Source: Manis javanica
Taxonomy: Eukaryota > Chordata > Mammalia > Pholidota > Manidae
DNA length: 64,000 nucleotides
NCBI RefSeq assembly: GCF_040802235.1
Contig: NC_133158.1
Span: 25,423,001-25,487,000 of the forward strand
Direction: 5' to 3'
A model generated the notes under the pieces. It worked only from the letters and a program-made list of their open reading frames with translations, made no database searches and was not told the DNA's origin. The position numbers were made by a program, and so were the translations under genes. This document shows positions 6,233-47,739 of this stretch, in pieces. Position 1 is the stretch's first letter. Each line of letters begins with the position of its first letter.

Positions 6233-7030
6233 TGTGCTACTCACTACACTTCTGACACCACATGTGTGGTTTTTTTCCCTCACACCAACCAATCTCCAGC
6301 TTTCTAGACACCAAATGGGTGTCCTACAATTCAATTCTGACACTATGTGGAGTTAGCAACAGACTTCACAGGCTTAAGGGCTCAATCCCACAAGACTGGC
6401 CTCACTTCACATGGCAGTTACACGTATTTGGGGTCCAGGGTACCCACACTGCTATCTGACTTGGCTACAAAGCTGAGCGTTTCCACAAAAAGCCCTTTCA
6501 GGTTCGGTAATTTGCTAGAACAGCTCAAAGAACTTAGGGAAGCACTCTACTTAACATTTACTGGTTTACTATAAAGGATACAGCCCTAGACCAGCCAGAT
6601 GGAAAGGATGCACAGGGCAGGGTGCAGGGTACAGATTTTCCATGTCCTCTCTGGGTGTGCCACCCTCCTACTACCTCGGCATATTCACCACCCCAGAAGC
6701 TCTCCAAACCCTGTAGCTTATGGATTTTTAAGGAAGTTTCACTATGTAGGAATGGTTGATTAAATCATTGGTCATTGGTGATTAACTCAATCTCCAGCTC
6801 CTCTCCCAGTCCCAGAGGTTGGGGACTGGATTGAACGCTCCAGTGGTCTAATCATGCCTTGGACTTTCTGGTGACCAGCATTCATTCTCAAGTTATCTGG
6901 TCCCCGGCCACCAGCCATCTCATTAGGATACAAAAGGCACTCTGATCACTCCACAGACTACAGGATGTTAGGACTTGTGTGCCAGGGACCTAGGACAAAG
7001 ATCAAATATATATTTCTTACAGTACCCACA
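6233..7030. repeat. Probable old solo LTR (ERVL-like), family not assigned
   Basis: A roughly 800-bp block that starts with TG and ends with CA. It contains phrases I associate with an old mammalian LTR family ('agaagctctccaaaccctg', 'gattaaatcattggtcattg', 'catctcattaggatacaaaa'). I see no flanking duplication and no internal retroviral coding sequence. Open frames inside (such as 6262-6459) have no protein resemblance. The boundaries and orientation are uncertain. Confidence 0.45.
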
Positions 7031-19451: not shown

Positions 19452-19554
19452 GGTGCTCACTTTGGCAGCACATAGACTAAAACTAGAATGATACAGAGAC
19501 TAGCACGGCCACTGTGGAAGGATGACAACAAATTTGCAAAGGATTCCATAAAAA
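19452..19554 (+). pseudogene. U6 snRNA retropseudogene
   Basis: The sequence begins 'gtgctcactttggcagcac' and continues 'gatacagagactagcac', 'aaggatgacaacaaattt' and 'gattccat', the order and near-full length of U6 snRNA (about 106 nt). Several substitutions and small deletions are visible. The terminal T run of a real U6 gene is replaced by an A-rich tail, the mark of L1-mediated retroposition. No proximal sequence element or TATA box typical of an active U6 promoter is evident upstream. Confidence 0.9.
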
Positions 19555-19577
19555 AAAAGAAGAAGAAGAAGAAGAAA
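19551..19577 (+). repeat. A-rich tail grown into (GAA)n microsatellite
   Basis: After the U6 copy come nine A and then five or six GAA units. Microsatellite growth from a retroposon tail is common. Confidence 0.8.
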
Positions 19578-30179: not shown

Positions 30180-30420
30180 TTGCTTCTGCTTTCCCCCCAT
30201 TTGGCTTCATTCTCACCCAAGTGGTATCACAAAGGCTACCAGCAGCTTTAGGCTTATAATCTATTTTCTCAGCAACCCCAATGGAAAAACATGCTTCTTT
30301 TCCAAAAGTTTCAACAAGAATCACAGAATTGAGTCTTTGGTTCTGAATGGCCTGGCTTGACCATATGCCCATCCCTAAACCAATCATCACAGGTAGGATG
30401 ATGCAACTGTCCACTGGCAA
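30180..30420 (-). repeat. Ancient interspersed repeat, family not assigned
   Basis: Phrases such as 'aggcttataatctattttctc', 'cagcaaccccaatgg', 'cagaattgagtcttt' and 'catatgcccatccctaaacc' recall a widespread old mammalian repeat. The piece at 38150-38570 seems to belong to the same family. Strand and class are uncertain. Confidence 0.35.
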
Positions 30421-30724
30421 TGCCAGGGTCCTTCTAGATGCAGCAATAAGTCAGTTTCACACTGACCACATGGTCTAATAGTACTTTGTTTTTCCAGGGA
30501 AAAGAAGAGTGCTACTTAAGGAATAAAAAGCAATGAATGCAGGGCCAGAGTGATGGCAATAGCTCAATGAGAGGAAGAAACTTCCATGAGAAAAAGACCT
30601 GTTTTGCCTGTTTACAGATTTCCTATAATGTTACTATATTGCCTTTATTTTTAAAATGAGGTTGGAAGGCATAGGATAAAAGAAAATCAAAGCTAAGTTT
30701 TTAAAATAACTTTATATATGATAA
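30337..30724. repeat. Local duplication, copy A (388 bp)
   Basis: Nearly identical to 32331-32717: about ten base differences and one 1-bp indel. The match starts abruptly at ttggttctgaatgg and ends at tttatatatgata, and the flanks are unrelated. Copy A continues leftwards into the repeat at 30180, copy B does not, so A is probably the source. Confidence 0.95.
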
Positions 30725-32330: not shown

Positions 32331-32717
32331 TTGGTTCTGAATGGCCTGGCTTGACCATATGCCCATCCCTAAACCAATCATCACAGGCAGGATGATGCAA
32401 CTGTCCACTGGCAATGCCAGGGTCCTTCTAGATGCAGCAATAGGTCAGTTTCACACTGACCACTTGTCTAATAGTACTTTGTTTTTCCAGGGAAAAGAAG
32501 AGTGCTACTTAAGGAATAAGAAGCAATGAATGCAGGGCCAGAGTGATGGCAATAGCTCAATGAGAGGAAGAAACTTCTATGAGAAAAAGACCTGTTTTGC
32601 CTGTTTACAAATTTCCTATAATGTTACTATATTGCCTTTATTTTTAAAATGAGGTTGGAAGGCAAAGGATAAAAGAAAATCAAGGCTAAGTTTTTAAAAT
32701 AAATTTATATATGATAA
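32331..32717. repeat. Local duplication, copy B (387 bp)
   Basis: Partner of 30337-30724 in the same orientation, 1.99 kb downstream. The left junction joins unrelated sequence ('gtctataaagtg') directly to ttggttctgaatgg. Confidence 0.95.
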
Positions 32718-39767: not shown

Positions 39768-39784
39768 AAATAAATTCTTACTTG
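39768..39784. repeat. TSD (left) of composite L1-retroviral insertion
   Basis: aaataaattcttacttg, 16 of 17 identical to 47723-47739. The preceding TT gives TT/AAAT, close to the L1 endonuclease preference TT/AAAA. Confidence 0.85.
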
Positions 39785-40565
39785 AGGGCAGAGCCAAGAT
39801 GGTGGTGTGAGTAGAGCAGTGGAAATCTCCTCCCAAAACCACATATATTTTTGAAAATACAACAAAGACAACTCTTCCTAAAATAGAGACCAGAAGACAC
39901 AGGACAACAACCAGACCACATCCACACATGCGAAAACCCAACGCCTCGCAAATGGGATAAGATACAAGCAACGGCCCGGCAGGACCCGAGCACCCCTCAC
40001 CCCAGCTCCCAGCAGGAGGAGAGGAGTCAGAGTGGGGAGGGAGAGGGAGCCCAGGACTGCTAAATAGCCAGCCCTAGCCATCCGCACTAGAGCGCAGACA
40101 CAGTGCATGCGTGGGGTCCTGGATACTAGGGAAACAGGACAGTAAGACCTGTGAGTGAGTCCCTGCAGCCGGCGCCCCAGGGACAAAGAAAAGAGAGTGC
40201 TTTTTGGAAGTCTTAAAGGGACAGGGACCTCACAACTGGGAGGAAGCATCCGGGGACACTTAGTCCAGCAGCAGGGAACTCCAGGCACCTTAAACCCCTG
40301 GATAGCAGAGCAGCTCAGAGGCCCCTCATGGAGTAAAACAGCCTCCTGGCCATTCCCCCTCCAATGTGGCTCCACCATATCGGAGCAGCAGCCCGAGGCA
40401 GGCCACAGCCACAGGAAAAGCAGAGATAAACTCCATAGCAGCCGGGCAAGAATCAGAAGCCCCATCTGCGCACAGCTGCCCAGCACAAGCCACTAGAGGT
40501 CGCTGTTCTCCCAGTAGAGGAAGGCCACAAACCAACAAGAAGGGAAGTTCTTCCAGCCATCACTC
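39785..40565 (+). promoter_or_regulatory. L1 5' UTR / internal promoter
   Basis: This 781-bp GC-rich leader starts with a YY1-like ccaagatggtgg (about 39793-39804) in the position used in other mammalian L1s to set the transcription start. It still holds several CpGs. On the opposite strand a single open frame covers 39878-40486, which is described under findings. The 5' UTR is unlike that of the older L1 at 3573-4760 except at the extreme start, consistent with L1 families replacing their promoters. Confidence 0.75.
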
Positions 40566-41471
40566 ATGCCAGCTCTGCAAACTATCTCTATCGCCATGAA
40601 AAGGCAAACTTTGAGGCAAACAAAGATTACAGAGACAACACCTGAGAAGGAGACAGACCTAACCAGACTTCCTGAAAAAGAATTCAAAATAAAAATCATA
40701 AATATGCTGACGGAGATGCAGAGAAATATACAGGAGCTAAGGGAGGAAGTCTGGAGGGGGATTACAGACGTCTGGAGGAAGATTACAGACGTCCAGAAGG
40801 AGTTTACAGAAGTGAAACAAACTGTGGAAGAGTTTATAAGCAGAATGGATAAGATGCAAGACGCCATTGACGGAATAGAAACCAGAGAAAACGAATGCAT
40901 AGAAGCTGACACAGAGAGAGATAAAAGGATCTCCAGGAATGAAACAATATTAAGAGAACTGTGTGACCAATCCAAATGGAACAATAACCATATTATAGGA
41001 GTACCAGAAGAAGAGAGAGAAAAAGGGATACAAAGTGTCTTTGAAGAAATAATTGCTGAAAACTTCCCCAAATTGGGGGAGGAAATAATGGAACAGACCA
41101 TGGAAATACACAGAACTCCCAACAGAAAGGTCCCAAGGAGGACAACACCAAGACACATAATAATTAAAATGGCAAAGATCAAGGACAAGGACAGAGTTTT
41201 AAAGGCAGCTACAGAGAAAAAGGTCACCTATAAAGGAAAACCCATCAGGCTATCATCAGACTGCTCAACAGAAACCTTACAGGCCAGAAGAGAATGGCAC
41301 GATATATTTAATGCAATAAAACAGAAGGGCTTTGAACCAAGGATACTCTATCCAGCACAATTATCATTTAAATATGAAGGAGGGATTAAACAATTCCCAG
41401 ACAAGCAAAAGTTGAGGGAATTTGCCTCCCACAAACCACCTCTACAGGGTATTCTAGAGGGACAATTCTAG
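40566..41471 (+). CDS. L1 ORF1p, intact (301 codons)
   Basis: Encodes the RNA-binding, trimer-forming L1 protein that coats L1 RNA in the cytoplasm. ATG at 40566; a second in-frame ATG at 40596 (MKRQTLRQTK) matches the usual ORF1 start better, giving 291 codons. Layout: basic, disordered N-terminus (1-35); coiled coil (about 36-130) in which 21-bp units at 40749-40811 repeat a heptad (VWRGITD, VWRKITD, VQKEFTE); RNA-recognition domain (about 135-225) with REKG and TPRHIIIKM; C-terminal domain with ARREWHDIF and YPAQLSFKYEG. Stop TAG at 41469. No frameshift or stop. Divergence is low enough that loss of function is not obvious from sequence. Confidence 0.93.
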   Translation: MPALQTISIAMKRQTLRQTKITETTPEKETDLTRLPEKEFKIKIINMLTEMQRNIQELREEVWRGITDVWRKITDVQKEFTEVKQTVEEFISRMDKMQDAIDGIETRENECIEADTERDKRISRNETILRELCDQSKWNNNHIIGVPEEEREKGIQSVFEEIIAENFPKLGEEIMEQTMEIHRTPNRKVPRRTTPRHIIIKMAKIKDKDRVLKAATEKKVTYKGKPIRLSSDCSTETLQARREWHDIFNAIKQKGFEPRILYPAQLSFKYEGGIKQFPDKQKLREFASHKPPLQGILEGQF

Positions 41472-41758
41472 ATAGGCGCACTCCTAAGACTAAACAGATG
41501 TCACCAGAGAAAATAAAATCCCAGCAAAGAAAGCAGACCAACCAAATACTAACTAAAGGCAAAAAATAAGATCAACTACCCACTAAAAGCAGTTAAAGGA
41601 AACATGAAAGAGCACAGAATAAAACAACCAACATATAAAGAATGAAGGAGGAGGAATAAGAAGGGAGAGAAGAAAAGAATCTCCAGACAGTGTATATAAC
41701 AGCTCAATAAGTGAGCTAAGTTAGGCAGTAAGATACTAAAGAGGCTAACCTTGAACCT
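41472..41758 (+). other. L1 inter-ORF spacer
   Basis: A-rich spacer of about 290 bp between ORF1 and ORF2. L1 ORF2 is normally reached by low-efficiency reinitiation across such a spacer. Confidence 0.7.
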
Positions 41759-44700
41759 TTGGTAACCACGAATCTAAAGCCTGCAAGGGCAATAAGTACA
41801 TATCTTTCAATAGTCACTCTAAATGTAAATGGACTGAATGCACCAATCAAAAGACACAGACTAATAGAATGGATAAAAAAGCAAGACCCATCTACATGCT
41901 GCTTACAAGAAATTCACCTCAAACCCAAAGACATGCACAGACTAAAAGTTAAGGGATGGAAAAACATATTTCAGGCAAAAAACAGAAGGAAGAAAGCAGA
42001 GGTTGCAGTACTAGTATCAGACAAAATAGACTTCACAACAAAGAAAGTAACAAGAGATAAAGAAGGACATTACATAATGATAAAGGGCTCAGTCCAACAA
42101 GAAGATATAATCATTCTAAATATATATGCACCCAACACAGGAGCACTAGCATATGTGAAACAAATACTAACAGAACTAAAGGGGGATATAGAATGCAATG
42201 CATTCATTTTAGGAGACTTCAACACACCACTCACCCCAAAGGATAGATTCACCGGGCAGAAAATAAGTAAGGACACGGAGGCACTAAACAACACACTAGA
42301 ACAGATGGACTTAATAGACATCTATAGAACTCTACATCCAAAAGCAACAGGATATACATTCTTCTCAAGTGAACATGGAACATTCTCCAGAATAGACCAT
42401 GTACTAGGTCATAAAAAGAGCCTCGGTAAATTCCAAAAGATTGAAATTCTACCAACCAACTTTTCAGACCACAAAGGTATAAAACTAGAAATAAATTCTA
42501 CAAAGAAAACAAAAAGACTCACAAACACATGGAGGCTTAACAACATGCTCCTAAATAAACAATGGATCAATGAACAAACTAAAATAGAGATCAAGGAATA
42601 TATGGAAACAAATGACAACAACAATACAAAGCCCCAACTTCTGTGGGATGCAGCGAAAGCAGTCTTAAGAGGAAAGTATATAGCAATCCAGGCACACTTA
42701 AAGAAGGAAGAACAATCCCAAATGAATAGTCTAACATCACAATTATCGAAACTGGGAAAAGAAGAACAAATGAGGCCTAAAGTCAGCAGAAGGAGGGACA
42801 TAATAAAGATCAGAGAAGAAATAAACAAAATTGAGAAGAATAAAACAATAGCAAAAATCAATGAAACCAAGAGCTGGTTCTTTGAGAAAATAAACAAAGT
42901 AGATAAGCCTCTAGTCAAAGTTATTAAGAGAAAAAGAGAATCAACACACATCAACAGAATCAGAAATGAGAATGGAAAAATCACGACAGACTCCACAGAA
43001 ATACAAAGAATTATTAAAGACTACTATGAAAACCTATATGCTAACAAGCTGGAAAACCTAGAAGAAATGGACAACTTCCTAGAAAAATACAACCTTCCAA
43101 GAATGACCAAGGAAGAAACACAAAAGTTAAGCAAACCCATTACGAGCAAAGAAATTGAAATAGTAATTAAAAAACTACACAAGAACAAAACTCCCGGGCC
43201 GGACGGATTTACCTCGGAATTTTATCAGACATACAGAGAAGACATAATACCTATTCTCCTTAAAGTTTTCCAAAAAATAGAAGAGGAGGGAATACTCCCA
43301 AACTCATTCTATGAAGCCAACATCACCCTAATACCAAAACCAGGCAAAGACCCCACCAAAAAAGAAAATTACAGACCAATATCCCTGACGAATGTAGATG
43401 CAAAAATACTCAATAAAATATTAGCAAACTGAATTCAAAAATATATCAAAAGGATCATATACCATGACCAAGTGGGGTTCATCCCAGGGATGCAAGGATG
43501 GTACAACATTCGAAAATCCATCAACATCATCCACCACATCAACAAAAAGGACAAAAACCACATGATCATCTCCATAGATGCTGAAAAAGCATTTGACAAA
43601 GTTCAACATCCATTCATGATAAAAACTCTCAGCAAAATGGGAATAGAAGGCAAGTACCTCAACATAATAAAGGCCATCTATGATAAACCCACAGCCAACA
43701 TTATATTGAACGGCGAGAAGCTGAAAGCTTTTCCTCTGAGATCAGGAACTAGACAGGGATGCCCACTCTCCCCACTGTTATTTAACATAGTACTGCAGGT
43801 CCTATCCACAGCAATCAGACAAAACAAAGAAATACAAGGAATCCAGATTGGTAAAGAAGAAGTTAAACTGTCACTATATGCAGATGACATGATATTGTAC
43901 ATAAAAAACCCTAAAGACTCCACTCCAAAACTACTAGAACTGGTAACGGAATACAGCAAAGTTGCAGGATACAAAATCAACACACAGAAATTTGTGGCTT
44001 TCCTATACACTAACAATGAACCAACAGAAAGAGAAATCAGGAAAACAACTCTATTCACAATTGCATCAAAAAGAATAAAATACCTAGGAAAAAACCTAAC
44101 CAAAGAAGTGAAAGATCTATACCCTGAAAACTACAAGACACTCTTAAGAGAAATTAAAGGGGACACTAACAAATGGAAACTCATCCCATGCTCTTGGCTA
44201 GGAAGAATTAATATCGTCAAAATGGCCATTCTGCCCAAAGCAATATACAGATTTGATGCAATCCCTCTCAAATTACCAGCAACATTCTTCAAAGAACTTG
44301 AACAAATAGTTCAAAAATTCATATGTAAACACCAAAGACCCTGAATAGCCAAAGCAATCCTGAGAAAGAAGAATAAAGCGGGGAGGATCTCACTCCCCAA
44401 CTTCAAGCTCTACTACAAAGCTATAGTAATCAAGACAATTTGGTGCTGGCACAAGTACAGAGCCACAGACCAGTGGAACAGATTAGAGACTTCAGACATT
44501 AACCCAAACATATATGGTCAATTAATATTTGATAAAGGAGCCATGGACATACAATGGCGAAATGACAGTCTCTTCAACAGATGGTGCTGGCAAAACTGGA
44601 CAGCTACATGTAAGAGAATGAAACTGGACCACTGTCTAACCCCATACACAAAAGTAAATTCGAAATGGATCAAAGACCTGAATGTAAGTCATGAAACCAT

Positions 44701-45570
44701 AAAACTCTTAGAAAAAAACATAAGCAAAAGTCTCCTAGACATAAACATGAGTGACCTCTTCTTGAACATATCTCCCTGGGCAAGGAAAACAAAAGCAAAA
44801 ATAAACAAGTGGGACTATATTAAGCTGAAAAGCTTCTGTACAGCAAAAGTCACCATCACTAGAACAAAAGGTAGCCTACAGTATGGGAGAATATATATAT
44901 ACAGTGGTATAAAGGTCATACTATATGGGAGAATATAAAGAGCTCACCCACCTCAACAAACAAAAAACAAATAATGCAATTAAAAAATGGGCAGAGGAAC
45001 TGAACAGACAGTTCTCCAAAAAAGAAATTCAGATGGCCAACAGACACATGAAAAGATGCTCCACATCACTAGTTATCAGAGAAATGCAAATTAAAACCAC
45101 AATGAGATATCACCTCACACCAGTAAGGATGGCTACCACCCAAAAGACAAACAACAACAAATGTTGTCAAGGTTGTGGAGAAAGGGGAACCCTCCTACAC
45201 TGCTGGTGGGAATATAAATTAGTTCAACCATTGTGGAAAGCAGTATGGAGGTTCCTCAAAATGCTCAAAATAGACTTACCATTTGACCCAGGAATTCCAC
45301 TCCTAGGAATTTACCCTAAGAATGCAGCACTCCAGTTTGAAAAAGAAAGATGCACCCCTATATTTATCAAAGCACTATTTACAATAGCCAAGAATTGGAA
45401 GCAACCTAAGTGTCCATCAGTAGATGAACGGATAAAGAAGATGTGGTACATATACACAAATCCTACCATTTGCAACAACATGGATGGAGCTAGAGGGTAT
45501 TATGCTCAGTGAAATAAGCCAAATGGCGAAAGACAAATACCAAATGATTTCACTCATCTGTGGAGTATAA
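41759..45570 (+). pseudogene. L1 ORF2 (endonuclease-reverse transcriptase), near full length, disrupted
   Basis: Nicks target DNA and reverse-transcribes L1 RNA. No ATG lies at the expected start; the open frame begins upstream, and the codon at 41759 is TTG, probably a decayed ATG. Numbering from it, all endonuclease catalytic residues are present (N22, E51, D153, N155, D213, H238). Reverse transcriptase motifs AFD (43589-43597) and YADD (43877-43888) are intact. Breaks: TGA 43430-43432; TGA 44342-44344; a rearranged patch at 44882-44937 that shifts the frame (stop TAA 44936-44938); and a 32-bp deletion near 45458, shifting it again. The C-terminal cysteine motif has its last Cys changed to Tyr (45213-45215). 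The true end is TAA 45568-45570. Confidence 0.93.
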
Positions 45571-45903
45571 GAGCAAAGGAAAAACTGAAGGAACAAAACA
45601 GCAACAGAATCACAGAACCCAAGAATGGACTAACAGGTACCAAAGGGAAAGGGACTGGGGAGGATGGGTGGGTAGGGAGGGATAAGGGGAAGGGAAGAAG
45701 AAAGGGGGTATTATGATTAGCATACATAATGTGGGGGGTGGGAGAAAGGGGAGGGCTGTGCAACACAGAGAAGACAAGTAGTGATTCTACAACATTTTGC
45801 TATGCGGATGGACAGTGGCTGTAATGGGGTTTGTAGGGGGGACTTGGTGTAGGGGAGAGCCTAGTAAACATAATATTCTTCATGTAATTGTAGATTAATG
45901 ATA
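45571..45903 (+). other. L1 3' UTR with G-rich tract
   Basis: Begins after ORF2 and contains G runs at about 45645-45718 (several GGG/GGGG blocks with short loops) followed by the family-typical 'gattagcatacataatgtg' and 'cttcatgtaattgtagatt'. The 3' ends at 29521 and 51481 are homologous throughout. Confidence 0.85.
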
Positions 45904-45924
45904 ACAAAAAAAAAGAGAAATAAA
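45904..45924 (+). promoter_or_regulatory. L1 A-tail with AATAAA
   Basis: 'aacaaaaaaaaagagaaataaa': the L1's own short A-rich end, with AATAAA at 45919-45924. It is internal to the composite insertion, as expected if transcription read past it. Confidence 0.75.
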
Positions 45925-46064
45925 AGGGGGATTACTCCCTGATAGCATAAAACTAACTGTAAATTGCATGCCTTATATATCCTTAATTTTGATATTTTAA
46001 AGGGTGTCAGATGATCAGCTTTGGAAGTACGTTTTTCTGATAATATTCTTTTCTCTTAAAAAAA

Positions 46065-46235
46065 AAAGCAGTTCCTGTGTGGTGATCTCCAATAGGTTCT
46101 TCACAGTGGTATAAAGGTCATATCAAAGTGTGGGCAAAGGGTTTGTTTGTGTTTATACAGAGGATCAAAGCCTAATTTGGCTACCCAGAAAACGAATTAA
46201 AATACGCTATGAAGGAGAACTTCCAACATCAACAT
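46065..46235 (+). pseudogene. Retroviral integrase C-terminal remnant
   Basis: Integrase inserts proviral DNA into chromosomes; this is only the end of its C-terminal domain. A QWYKGHIKVW stretch (from about 46105) and, one base out of frame, a VCVYTEDQSLIWLPRKRIK stretch (to about 46199) have the WYKG, VCV and W(I/L)P landmarks of class II (betaretrovirus/ERVK-like) pol ends. The frameshift near 46134 and an upstream TGA disable it. The open frame continues past the usual pol end towards the env part. Confidence 0.7.
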
Positions 46236-46284
46236 CCTCTGGAAGAGTCCTTCCAGAAGATGATCATCAAAAAACTTCAACAAA

Positions 46285-46794
46285 GATCCTGGCGCTGTTG
46301 CAGTTGTAGCTGCATTCATCCCACCGGTTCCTGGACTTGCCATTGGAATGAAGAAGGAGATATCTAAGCTGGCCTGTGCATACAGTAAAACAACAAATTT
46401 GACTGGATCTATACTGTCGGAATTCAACCAAGAATTAGGAGAAGTGCAAGTTGCAGTGCTCCAAAATGGTGCGACTATAGACTATCTACTGTGAAAAGAA
46501 CATATGGGATGTGAACAGTTTCCAGGATTGTGTTGTTTTAATTTGTCTGATTTTTCTCAAACTATTCAAATTCAGTTAGACAATATCCATCATATCATTG
46601 ATAAGTTTTCACAAATGCCTACGGTGCCTAACTGGTTTTCTTGGTTTCACTGGATATGGCTGGTAATTGTAGGTCTGCTTTTGTTATGTAGCTGTATTCC
46701 TATTCTGTTAATGTGTGTATGCAATTTAATTAGTAGTTTGTTAAAACCTATACATGCTTATGTTACTCTACAAGAAGATATGTCAAAGAAATAA
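46285..46794 (+). pseudogene. Retroviral env transmembrane-subunit remnant
   Basis: Reading from 46285, one frame runs to a TAA at 46792-46794 with a single internal stop (TGA 46492-46494). In order: a hydrophobic, glycine/proline-containing stretch like a fusion peptide (about 46290-46350); a helical region ending in an LQN block; a CX6CC disulfide motif (C 46510, CC 46531-46536) followed by FNLSD; a tryptophan-rich pre-membrane segment; a membrane anchor (about 46645-46735); and a short tail. This layout is that of betaretrovirus-like env. The surface subunit is missing, so the piece joins almost directly to the integrase end. It cannot make a complete envelope protein. Confidence 0.82.
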
Positions 46795-47376
46795 TCAATC
46801 TTCCCATGTTTTCTTCCGTCTGCTACTTCCATAGCTTTTCTCCTTCCTTCCTAATTACAAACCTTTAGTAGAATTCATGCCTCATGTTGAAAATTACTGA
46901 GTATCGTAATTCTTCCAAGTGGTAAAGATACCTCAAGACAAATGCTGGGCATAGAAGCCACAGGGCATAAATATGCAAAGAAGTAAAAAGCTAACCTTTT
47001 CAAACAATATTGCTTCTCTCTCACTTACCAACTTTACATTTCCCTGTATGGCCCCGGAAGATGACTGGTTAGCCAGAGATGGGTAAGATTCCTTAAGGGA
47101 GGAACAACCTTAGACAGGCACAGTCACAGGGGGGCCATCAGGTGAGAAATTGGGGATCAACAGAGATGAGGCTTAGAACCTCACCCCTGTTTTGAGAGAA
47201 ATCTTCTGCATCTGTGGATGTTTTGTTGCCCTTGTCTAGCTTGGATTAATACTTAGTCTATAGGCACACACCTGATCATCTACATTTGCCCTCTTACAGC
47301 ACTGAATTATGTTTTCTACCTTTAACTTGCATCTACCTACCACTTCAGCATTTTATTAAAAAATAATAATAATTAT
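46795..47376 (+). other. Retroviral sequence between env and LTR
   Basis: Non-coding stretch of about 580 bp. No accessory reading frame is recognisable. The A/T-rich part at 47355-47376 immediately precedes the polypurine tract. Confidence 0.5.
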
Positions 47377-47386
47377 AAGGGAGAAA
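47377..47386 (+). promoter_or_regulatory. Retroviral polypurine tract
   Basis: aagggagaaa directly before the TG that opens the LTR; the expected position of the plus-strand primer in retroviral reverse transcription. Confidence 0.7.
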
Positions 47387-47698
47387 TGTGGGATTCACAT
47401 ATAAATCAAGTATAAAAATCAAACAAATAATCATATCTGACTTGATTGTTTACAGTTCATGGTGTGTGATCAAAACTGAAAGTTTCTGTGATATGACTGC
47501 CCTTGCACTGTTCACCATGTAAGAACTTATTCAATATGTAAGAACTTGTTCACCATGTAAGAACTTGTTCATTATGCTTCAGAAGATTGGAGACTGTTGA
47601 GAATTAGGCTTGGAGTTGATTGTGCATTGAGTCCCCTATACAGAATTTTATTGTTGTTAACAACCATTTGATCAATAAATATGAGAGATGCCCTCTCA
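47387..47698 (+). repeat. Truncated LTR (U3-R, no U5)
   Basis: Begins tgtgggattcac and contains three 19-bp tandem units (47511-47567) plus a partial fourth. It has AATAAA at 47674-47679 and ends about 19 nt further in ctctca, followed at once by an A-rich tail. The length, TG start and polyadenylation signal fit a class II LTR cut at its RNA cleavage site, so this end was copied from polyadenylated RNA and not from integrated proviral DNA. Confidence 0.8.
47511..47576 (+). repeat. 19-bp tandem repeat in LTR U3
   Basis: Units at 47511-47529, 47530-47548 and 47549-47567 share ttcaNNatgtaagaactt; a partial unit follows to 47576. U3 repeats of this size often act as enhancers. Confidence 0.9.
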
Positions 47699-47722
47699 AA
47701 AAATAAAATAAAATAAAATAAA
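47699..47722 (+). other. A-rich tail, (AAATA)n
   Basis: The tail following the LTR cleavage site; AAATA units suggest microsatellite growth of an original poly(A). Confidence 0.85.
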
Positions 47723-47739
47723 AAATAAATTCATACTTG
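47723..47739. repeat. TSD (right) of composite insertion
   Basis: aaataaattcatacttg; one T/A difference from 39768-39784. Its first As merge with the tail. Confidence 0.85.

Follow-up and report, generated by a model that had tools for sequence, protein, structure and literature searches.

The window, a 64,000-nucleotide stretch of the Manis javanica genome, contains an L1 retrotransposon followed by part of a retrovirus, and the locus raises the question of whether the two arrived together and, if so, where they were joined. The L1 (39785..45905; all features described here lie on the forward strand) is full-length, with a 5' UTR, ORF1, ORF2, and a proper 3' end in GATAAC, as judged by ORF and domain searches and by collinearity. 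ORF1 (40566..41471) is open for 301 aa and matches PF02994 (E 6.4e-23) and PF17490 (E 1.6e-22), and ORF2 (41759..45512), with its endonuclease (PF03372) and reverse transcriptase (PF00078), is in broken pieces, disrupted by stops plus a frameshift near 44925-44938. The RNA-binding domains of ORF1, the two enzymatic domains of ORF2, and an ORF2 that is open in some copies elsewhere place the element among L1s. The window copy is collinear with three other copies (L065-L067) across about 7.95 kb at 91.6-92% identity. An A-rich L1 tail and a run of G (45906..45930), found by copy comparison to be common to the family, form the junction with the retroviral part.

Comparison within the window shows that AAATAAATTCTTACTTG, at 39768..39784, is repeated at 47723..47739 with 16 of 17 bases identical, and this target-site duplication (TSD) encloses the L1 and the env-TM/LTR segment together, 39785-47722. 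When 2985 random flanks drawn from the window were compared with the real 3' end of the fused unit, none matched 17 bases with at most one mismatch, and the longest match was 14; the earlier claim of a 17-bp duplication with one mismatch, 7.9 kb apart, is confirmed. The top-strand TT/AAAT at the site fits the nick of the L1 endonuclease, as had been proposed. Around the A-rich end of the L1 itself (45895-45960), 5'-flank matches of at least 8 bases are absent, in agreement with the earlier statement that no duplication follows the L1's own A-tail. Sequence at the window locus alone could not exclude two separate insertions.

The junction, however, is not peculiar to this locus. It has 6,500 matches in the host genome (3192+3308, with up to two mismatches), against none for a reversed-pattern control, and all 29 other loci fetched, a subset of the 39 other loci scored, have the identical order of L1 3' end, retroviral piece, TM, and post-env region. 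The window copy therefore descends from an already existing fused family. The preliminary description had preferred a 3' transduction at the time of the window insertion, in which transcription of an L1 ran on into an adjacent defective provirus and the product inserted here. A single TSD enclosing the unit, with none at the L1's own end, would suit such an event, but the thousands of junction matches, and the same junction at every other locus fetched, refute it: they are not what a source L1 at one locus with an otherwise unique transduced piece leaves behind, and the fused family was already replicating. We regard this origin of the window copy as highly improbable. Its stated alternative, in which the L1 inserted first and a retroviral RNA was then copied into its A-tail, is barely credible. 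A second TSD (7 bases exact, or 10 with one mismatch) might be masked by the A-rich sequence on either side, and L045 and L083 seem to record later insertions into the family's A-rich sites or A-tails, but the junction letters are identical genome-wide, the TSDs of truncated copies enclose an L1 fragment plus the retroviral tail, and the family data reject two events at the window locus. What holds is that a single retrotransposition moved L1 and retroviral segment here together. We conclude with high confidence that the unit at 39785-47722 belongs to a large and long-lived family of L1s that have an SU-less retroviral segment as their 3' end and presumably propagate by read-through transcription, cleavage at the LTR poly(A) site, and target-primed reverse transcription.

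Loci collected with other patterns behave consistently. Thirty loci found with a pattern at the start of TM comprise 23 with the standard junction, three in which L1 meets the retroviral part at a later point, and four without L1, all of which begin inside the retroviral part. One of these four, L042, begins in TM and has a perfect 15-base TSD, as expected of a 5'-truncated copy; in the other 29 loci the integrase remnant abuts TM. The same broad family also includes plain L1s: 13 of 16 loci with the exact L1 3' end, placed by position and including several apparent duplicate pairs, are plain and three are fused, so the tail is not required by all L1s.

The hallmarks of target-primed reverse transcription (TSD, A-tail, 5' truncation) occur in the window copy, in other fused copies, or in both. 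In a set of 30 loci compared at the 3' end, which includes the window copy, 24 have the LTR end with an A-rich tail behind it, and the LTR end was not found in the remaining six. Among nine 5'-truncated copies, seven have TSDs around the fused unit, those of L041 (11/11) and L013 (11/12) being weaker, with the chance control covering the window copy only. Longer stretches were fetched for L010, L019, L020, and L021 (as L065-L068); three are full-length, with TSDs in L066 (15/15) and L065 (10/10) and none in L067, while L068, which joins a different, older L1 upstream, was left out of this count. Use of the poly(A) site is not universal: L100 stops within U3, L009, L023/L031, and L024 stop close to U3 base 40-50, and L065 stops in the LTR and has no A-tail. 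L064 lacks an interval bounded by GT-AG, running from the L1 3' UTR to the integrase remnant (target 45637-46160), and may resemble the product of a spliced RNA spanning L1 and retroviral parts; ACAG on both sides of the join makes a microhomology deletion possible. Splicing was rejected for L061 and L062, whose joins lack GT-AG.

The segment serving as the family's 3' end consists of an integrase end, TM, a post-env region, and U3-R. Its first 130 or so bases (45931..46057), common to copies, show no identified coding frame on inspection and may be retroviral or flank of the founding copy. A frameshifted integrase C-terminal remnant follows (46068..46281), placed by PF00552 plus judgment by eye: the Pfam match, E 0.0021 over 46127-46285, falls below the curated cut-off, and solved integrase structures match weakly (E 0.14-0.3). 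Its left end and its label as beta-type were judged by eye. Abutting it, with no SU, is an env TM remnant containing CX6CC (46282..46794), identified from its frames and from a structure-database match to the solved ASLV TM at E 0.0065-0.02; a Pfam search of this remnant gave no match, and in the window copy an in-frame stop lies at 46492. Coding selection on the TM frame was considered and rejected: codon-position rates (0.057/0.090/0.061 for 46282-46491 and 0.056/0.068/0.055 for 46504-46791) resemble those of a non-coding control (0.066/0.061/0.068), and the frame is open in 17 of 42 copies. The post-env region (46795..47386), delimited by the divergence profile, ends in a purine run and holds most of a conserved block discussed below. 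U3-R of the LTR (47387..47697), recognized by inspection and copy comparison, has AATAAA at 47674-47679 and stops 18 bases after it, giving way to the A-rich tail of the fused unit (47698..47722, from the same evidence). Because the segment stops at the poly(A) site, U5 is missing and the LTR is incomplete; the "retroviral LTR" of the preliminary description stands as U3-R and not as a whole LTR. Nor does the unit look like an endogenous provirus: the integrase remnant abuts TM, and a single U3-R lies within a 17-base TSD of L1 type, rather than two LTRs within a short TSD of integrase type. Pangolin ERV-Beta.a/b-Mpen are betaretrovirus-like ERVs with a gamma-type Env, combining betaretroviral pol with a CX6CC TM, a pairing that the window segment seems to share; the abstract and Results of PMC12584738 describe low-copy proviruses and no L1 fusion family. 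Viral contigs scanned with the TM piece, the integrase piece, and the LTR end yielded no confirmed relatives beyond the host.

Fused copies appear to form one clade. For 39 of them against six plain L1s, with near-duplicates L031, L075, and L077 left out, the tree constrained to keep the fused copies in one clade outscored the freely searched one by 2.17 log units (AU p 0.567), and monophyly is thus not rejected and slightly preferred on these alignments; in the free tree one fused copy, L051, falls among the plain L1s. The fusion would then date to a single event. Most probably, transcription of an L1 lying upstream of a defective provirus continued as far as the LTR poly(A) signal; for this founding event, and for it only, 3' transduction is our best guess. 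Pattern searches of the host genome found neither a founding provirus nor a single source locus. A pattern excluding one base upstream of TM had 631 matches, and its 17 exact-match loci comprised 14 joined to L1 and three starting inside the retroviral part; a pattern with a different base at the junction had 157 matches, and all eight short stretches read were L1-joined. Possible, though we think it unlikely, is a founding fusion of L1 RNA with polyadenylated retroviral RNA by template switching or RNA ligation instead of read-through at the DNA level. The A-rich stretch and G-run at the junction and a retroviral part that ends like an RNA would fit, and PMC13174262 gives this explanation for L1 chimeras; but a full-length founding L1 with an internal A-tail equally fits read-through of an ordinary insertion, and the chimeras in that account carry their partner 5' of the L1, in a survey that looked only 5'.

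The family has young members. Among 77 other best matches to an ORF2 query, 59 have ORF2 open for at least 1283 aa, and the tail is present in six of six ORF2-open young copies read at the 3' end, which were picked by the analyst and differ pairwise by 0.0093 on average. The query came from a fused copy, so tail-less young L1 lineages could score lower and be missed. Of three young copies followed to their ends, two terminate at the family's poly(A) site. With the mammalian rate of 2.2e-9 substitutions per site and year, the young copies would date very roughly to 2 My ago, and an older burst, with a mean pairwise difference of 0.065, to about 15 My.

The tail has not diverged evenly. In a test of constraint that rests on a single young tail (L093+L099), 158 of 1752 tail columns separate it from at least 80% of 44 older copies, with 10 of 387 in the block 47001-47390 versus 148 of 1365 elsewhere (Fisher 3.3e-8, for a region chosen after the divergence profile) and one of 58 in the LTR poly(A) region, 47640-47705. 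A scan found an equally quiet 300-column stretch in none of 5000 permutations. Between older and young copies the tail is quiet only in this pre-LTR block and at the LTR poly(A) site; the LTR start, lying between them, is not quiet, and differences among the older copies are even along the tail (0.046-0.071).

Within the quiet block, folding prediction and copy comparison delimit a putative stem-loop of 112 nt (47039..47150), more stable than 500 of 500 shuffles (z about -4.2, with bounds chosen after the fold). AAGACA stands in this stem-loop in 39 of 44 older copies and in four of four young copies read. Rfam searches with the conserved block and with L099 gave only weak, unrelated matches (best E 0.34). 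A pre-LTR stem-loop with AAGACA recalls retroviral NXF1-binding export elements, and an export role may be taken as a lead only. The closest parallels are the constitutive transport elements (CTEs) of MPMV/SRV and the MLV gamma-CTE. The AAGACA stem-loop of the MLV gamma-CTE is reported to recruit NXF1 (PMC7551171), and the MPMV CTE is described in PMC11379458 as a structured RNA just upstream of the PPT and 3' LTR. The predicted stem-loop, if it forms, would have a similar place between env and LTR, and AAGACA is found in most copies read, but the predicted fold has one internal-loop region where the MPMV CTE has two internal loops. It is conceivable, if doubtful, that in one step an L1 captured a retroviral poly(A) signal and an NXF1-type export element as its 3' UTR, gaining better polyadenylation and export of its long RNA, and that these parts were carried into young ORF2-open L1s and retained by selection as the remaining retroviral tail decayed. 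We give serious weight, short of thinking it probable, to a tail that is a neutral passenger in which only the poly(A) signal matters, the quiet pre-LTR block coming from recombination with older copies; recombination between lineages could produce such a block. TM shows no third-position excess and is often interrupted, the window copy has lost AAGACA to TTAGACA, a longer piece of the block, 186 nt, folds with unremarkable stability (z -1.46, 15 of 200 shuffles as stable), and motif retention in the 44 older copies (AAGACAGG in 37, GGGTAAGA in 30) is about the level expected from decay alone, about 0.77. Against a passenger stand the two quiet blocks on either side of a less quiet LTR start and the stability of the 112-nt stem-loop.

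A tree compatible with one origin, a shared junction, a shared poly(A) end, TSDs around whole units, tailed young copies with open ORF2, and uneven tail conservation together support a fused L1 family. From these genomic traces we infer the transcription and processing of a fused RNA. Transcription would start at the L1 and run through the retroviral segment, the RNA would be cleaved at the LTR poly(A) site, and L1 proteins would copy it whole into DNA by target-primed reverse transcription; the resulting fused copies, full-length or truncated at the 5' end, would be flanked by TSDs. The tail may be kept because the poly(A) site helps the L1, as perhaps does a structured RNA element before the LTR, for which NXF1-type export is a tentative suggestion.

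Known systems share parts of this arrangement. The SINE-R of SVA covers env plus U3-R and stops at the LTR poly(A) site, and the fused family similarly has a retroviral 3' end that finishes at the LTR poly(A) site and moves as a unit. SVA is non-autonomous and lacks an L1 body, having hexamer, Alu-like, and VNTR parts at its 5' end, whereas the 5' part of the fused family is a full L1 with ORF1 and ORF2. L1-mediated HERV-W copies end at R plus an A-tail. These pseudogenes are likewise retroviral sequence mobilized by L1, but there the retroviral RNA moved without a fused L1. SVA of hominids is also a non-LTR element moved by L1 proteins with a retrovirus-derived 3' end (SINE-R, from HERV-K), and the number of junction matches found here exceeds the 1800-2800 copies given for LAVA/SVA (PMC7353768). 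Families of L1 3' transductions probably share the founding step, in which transcription passes the L1 end and uses a poly(A) signal further down; human transductions measure 8-997 bp, with a median of 63, in a method-limited survey (PMC9311842), whereas in M. javanica a piece of 1.8 kb is now a constant component of a large family. L1 chimeras with U6, U3, Alu, and mRNA are likewise fused units inside one TSD, but the catalog in PMC13174262 covers partners on the 5' side of L1, whereas the M. javanica fusion has its partner on the 3' side and multiplies as a family. Our literature search found no report of an L1 lineage with a captured retroviral TM-U3-R 3' end.

L1 lineages are known to swap untranslated regions, and to our knowledge the source of new ones is mostly unknown. 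The family described here has a retroviral env-U3-R segment as the 3' end of an L1 with its own ORFs, in thousands of copies, a parallel to the SINE-R of SVA, and its uneven conservation points to the poly(A) site and the pre-LTR block as possibly selected parts. Annotation may split the fused unit into an L1 and an ERV fragment, overcounting env/LTR insertions. The suggestion that L1 disperses env-TM plus LTR sequence proves right for env-TM and U3: the fused family spreads retroviral U3 sequence at L1 scale.

The fused unit in the window, an L1 followed by a retroviral tail (39785-47722), lies within a single target-site duplication (TSD). As the preliminary description had claimed, the 17-base sequence 5' of the L1 is repeated with one mismatch after the retroviral A-tail, and no duplication occurs 3' of the A-rich end of the L1 itself; none of 2985 random flanks from the window equalled this match to the real 3' end (longest 14). 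Of the two L1 reading frames, ORF1 is open and ORF2 is broken. The retroviral segment starts with the C-terminal part of an integrase (PF00552 at E 0.0021, which falls short of the curated cut-off) and continues through an env TM region lacking SU and a post-env region to U3-R, the TM showing weak matches to the solved ASLV TM and no match in Pfam. Because it stops 18 bases past AATAAA, the segment resembles a polyadenylated RNA at its end rather than an integrated LTR. In U3 a 19-base unit is repeated 3.6 times in tandem (47509-47576). A 20-base exact match joins 44901-44920, in L1 ORF2, to 46103-46122, in the integrase remnant (a length not reached in any of 500 shuffles, where the maximum was 17). 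Of 36 L1 rows representing 33 loci, the window copy alone shows it, next to a TATGGGAGAATAT repeat, which suggests a template switch specific to this copy inside the fused unit. Elsewhere in the window, a direct repeat of about 388 bases (30337-30724 and 32331-32717, 97% identity, 2 kb apart) matches neither the L1 nor the retroviral tail, and a U6 snRNA-like sequence at 19453-19555 (RF00026, 53.7 bits) is probably a retropseudogene.

Judged by sequence searches of the host genome (2.56 Gb in 63 contigs, the window being C3:25423001-25487000), the fused unit is a family and not a single-locus event. The query 45925-46300 returned 3388 first-look candidates; among the 40 of these that were scored, window included, alignments start at query base 1 in 35 and at bases 2-5 in five. 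From the 39 others scored, 29 loci were fetched, and in all 29 the L1 3' end abuts the retroviral piece on its 5' side, with TM and post-env sequence coming next. A 25-base pattern for the junction, allowing up to two mismatches, occurs at 6,500 places, and its reversed control at none. In a list of 100 of the 157 matches to a junction-variant pattern, the junction base is T in 46, A in 45 and C in 9; the T share exceeds simple G-to-A mutation and possibly marks a subfamily.

The proposal that the L1 and retroviral part were inserted together is borne out by TSDs around the unit at other loci. They flank seven of nine 5'-truncated copies with both ends within the fetched stretch (present in L011, L012, L013, L015, L041, L042 and L060, absent from L007 and L026), a count made without a chance control and including weaker cases in L013 (11/12) and L041 (11/11); L042 starts inside TM. 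Three of four longer stretches (L065-L068) hold full-length fused copies, about 7.95 kb at 91.6-92% identity to the window copy, and two of these three have TSDs. Another copy, L064, lacks a GT-AG interval running from the L1 3' UTR to the integrase remnant, which fits retrotransposition of a spliced RNA spanning both parts; a microhomology deletion, for which the ACAG on both sides of the join speaks, is possible. Copies L009, L023/L031, L024 and L100 terminate early within U3 and finish with an A-run, through internal priming or alternative polyadenylation. In L040, L048, L052, L083 and L045, other L1 or fused-element ends start right at A-rich spots of the tail or A-tail, which suggests that the family serves as a landing site for later insertions.

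The exact 22-mer of the L1 3' end occurs 3967 times in the host genome. Sixteen such loci, taken in positional order and including several probable duplicate pairs, comprise 13 with a plain A-tail and three that are fused. For the L1 part (39 fused copies and six plain L1s), constraining the fused copies to one group improves the fit over an unconstrained tree by 2.17 log units (AU p 0.567), in line with a single origin; the unconstrained tree places one fused copy, L051, with plain L1s in a poorly supported part. The pairwise difference between older fused copies, computed over 43 rows that include the window copy and one duplicate pair, amounts to 0.065 for the tail and 0.088 for the L1 end. 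The fusion probably began when an L1 was read through into an SU-less provirus lying downstream; founding by RNA or template joining is a less likely route.

An ORF2 protein search found an open frame of at least 1283 aa in 59 of the 77 other hits among the best 78 of 171,009 candidates; the query was the start of the window copy's ORF2, and because it came from a fused copy the hits are biased to its relatives, so that a tail-less young lineage could be missed. Six of the 59 were picked by hand, and each of the six 3' ends has the junction and retroviral tail seen in the other fused copies. Young copies differ from one another by a mean of 0.9%; over the first 376 tail bases their difference from the window copy is about 23%. 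Three were traced further: two stop at the same LTR poly(A) site and carry unbroken A-tails (about 30 and 10), and the third stops inside U3 with an A-run. The tail has therefore been passed down across turnover of L1 subfamilies. The 5' UTRs of three young L1s (L102-L104) repeat a motif of about 37 bases every 210 bases or so, and L083 has such a motif at 142-410 spacing; these recall the tandem promoter monomers of mouse L1.

Older copies diverge from one another to a similar degree throughout the tail (0.046-0.071), the pattern that decay following insertion should leave. The young-old comparison, which rests on one young tail (L093 and L099), is uneven: the difference is 0.18 for the integrase remnant, falls to 0.024-0.028 across 47001-47390, lies at 0.065-0.098 through most of the LTR and drops to 0.003 over the final 53 bases. 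The young tail departs from 80% or more of 44 older copies, one of them the window copy, at 10 of 387 columns in 47001-47390 and at 148 of 1365 outside it (Fisher 3.3e-8, the region being picked after seeing the difference profile); for 47640-47705 the count is 1 of 58. A fairer test, a 300-column scan, gives a minimum of 8 differences at 46919-47218, reached in none of 5000 permutations. TM looks neutral.

Within the conserved block, a long stem-loop is predicted at 47039-47150 (MFE z between -4.2 and -4.3 in each of three copies, matched in stability by 0 of 500 shuffles per copy), the lowest z among 32 windows of the young tail; its bounds were chosen after seeing how a longer stretch, 47030-47215, folds, and the latter is unremarkable (z -1.46, 15 of 200 shuffles as stable). 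AAGACA stands in the predicted internal loop in 39 of 44 older and 4 of 4 young copies and is altered in the window copy. Retention of AAGACAGG (37) and GGGTAAGA (30) in the 44 older copies is about the decay-only expectation, and the evidence for constraint therefore comes from the young-old comparison only. For the gamma-CTE (constitutive transport element) of MLV, an AAGACA stem-loop with NXF1 recruitment has been reported, and the MPMV CTE is a stem-loop of 150-175 nt with two internal loops (PMC7551171), directly before the PPT and 3' LTR (PMC11379458). The tail stem-loop fits these CTEs by position and AAGACA motif, but has one predicted internal-loop region, unlike the two of MPMV. An Rfam search of the block gave weak unrelated matches only. 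As an NXF1-type RNA export element, the predicted structure is a lead.

SVA elements share a retrovirus-derived 3' end with the fused L1, but without the L1 body (PMC7353768). A catalogue of L1 chimeras has partners 5' of the L1 (PMC13174262); human L1 transductions reach 997 bp in one survey, a method-limited maximum (PMC9311842), and dog L1s carry 3' transductions in about 1.8% of insertions differing between genomes (PMC12458276). A survey of Chinese pangolin ERVs reports betaretroviral elements whose Env is gamma-type, as well as one LINE-1 within a gamma ERV; no L1 fusion family appears in its abstract or Results (PMC12584738). Among the matches listed in a literature search by title and abstract start, no L1 with a retroviral 3' end is described.

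The family thus combines one insertion unit, a fixed junction, a fixed poly(A) end and persistence into young ORF2-open copies. Transcription would run through the L1 and retroviral tail as one unit. The fused L1 likely gains an advantage from the retroviral poly(A) site, and may also gain one from an RNA element in the tail.
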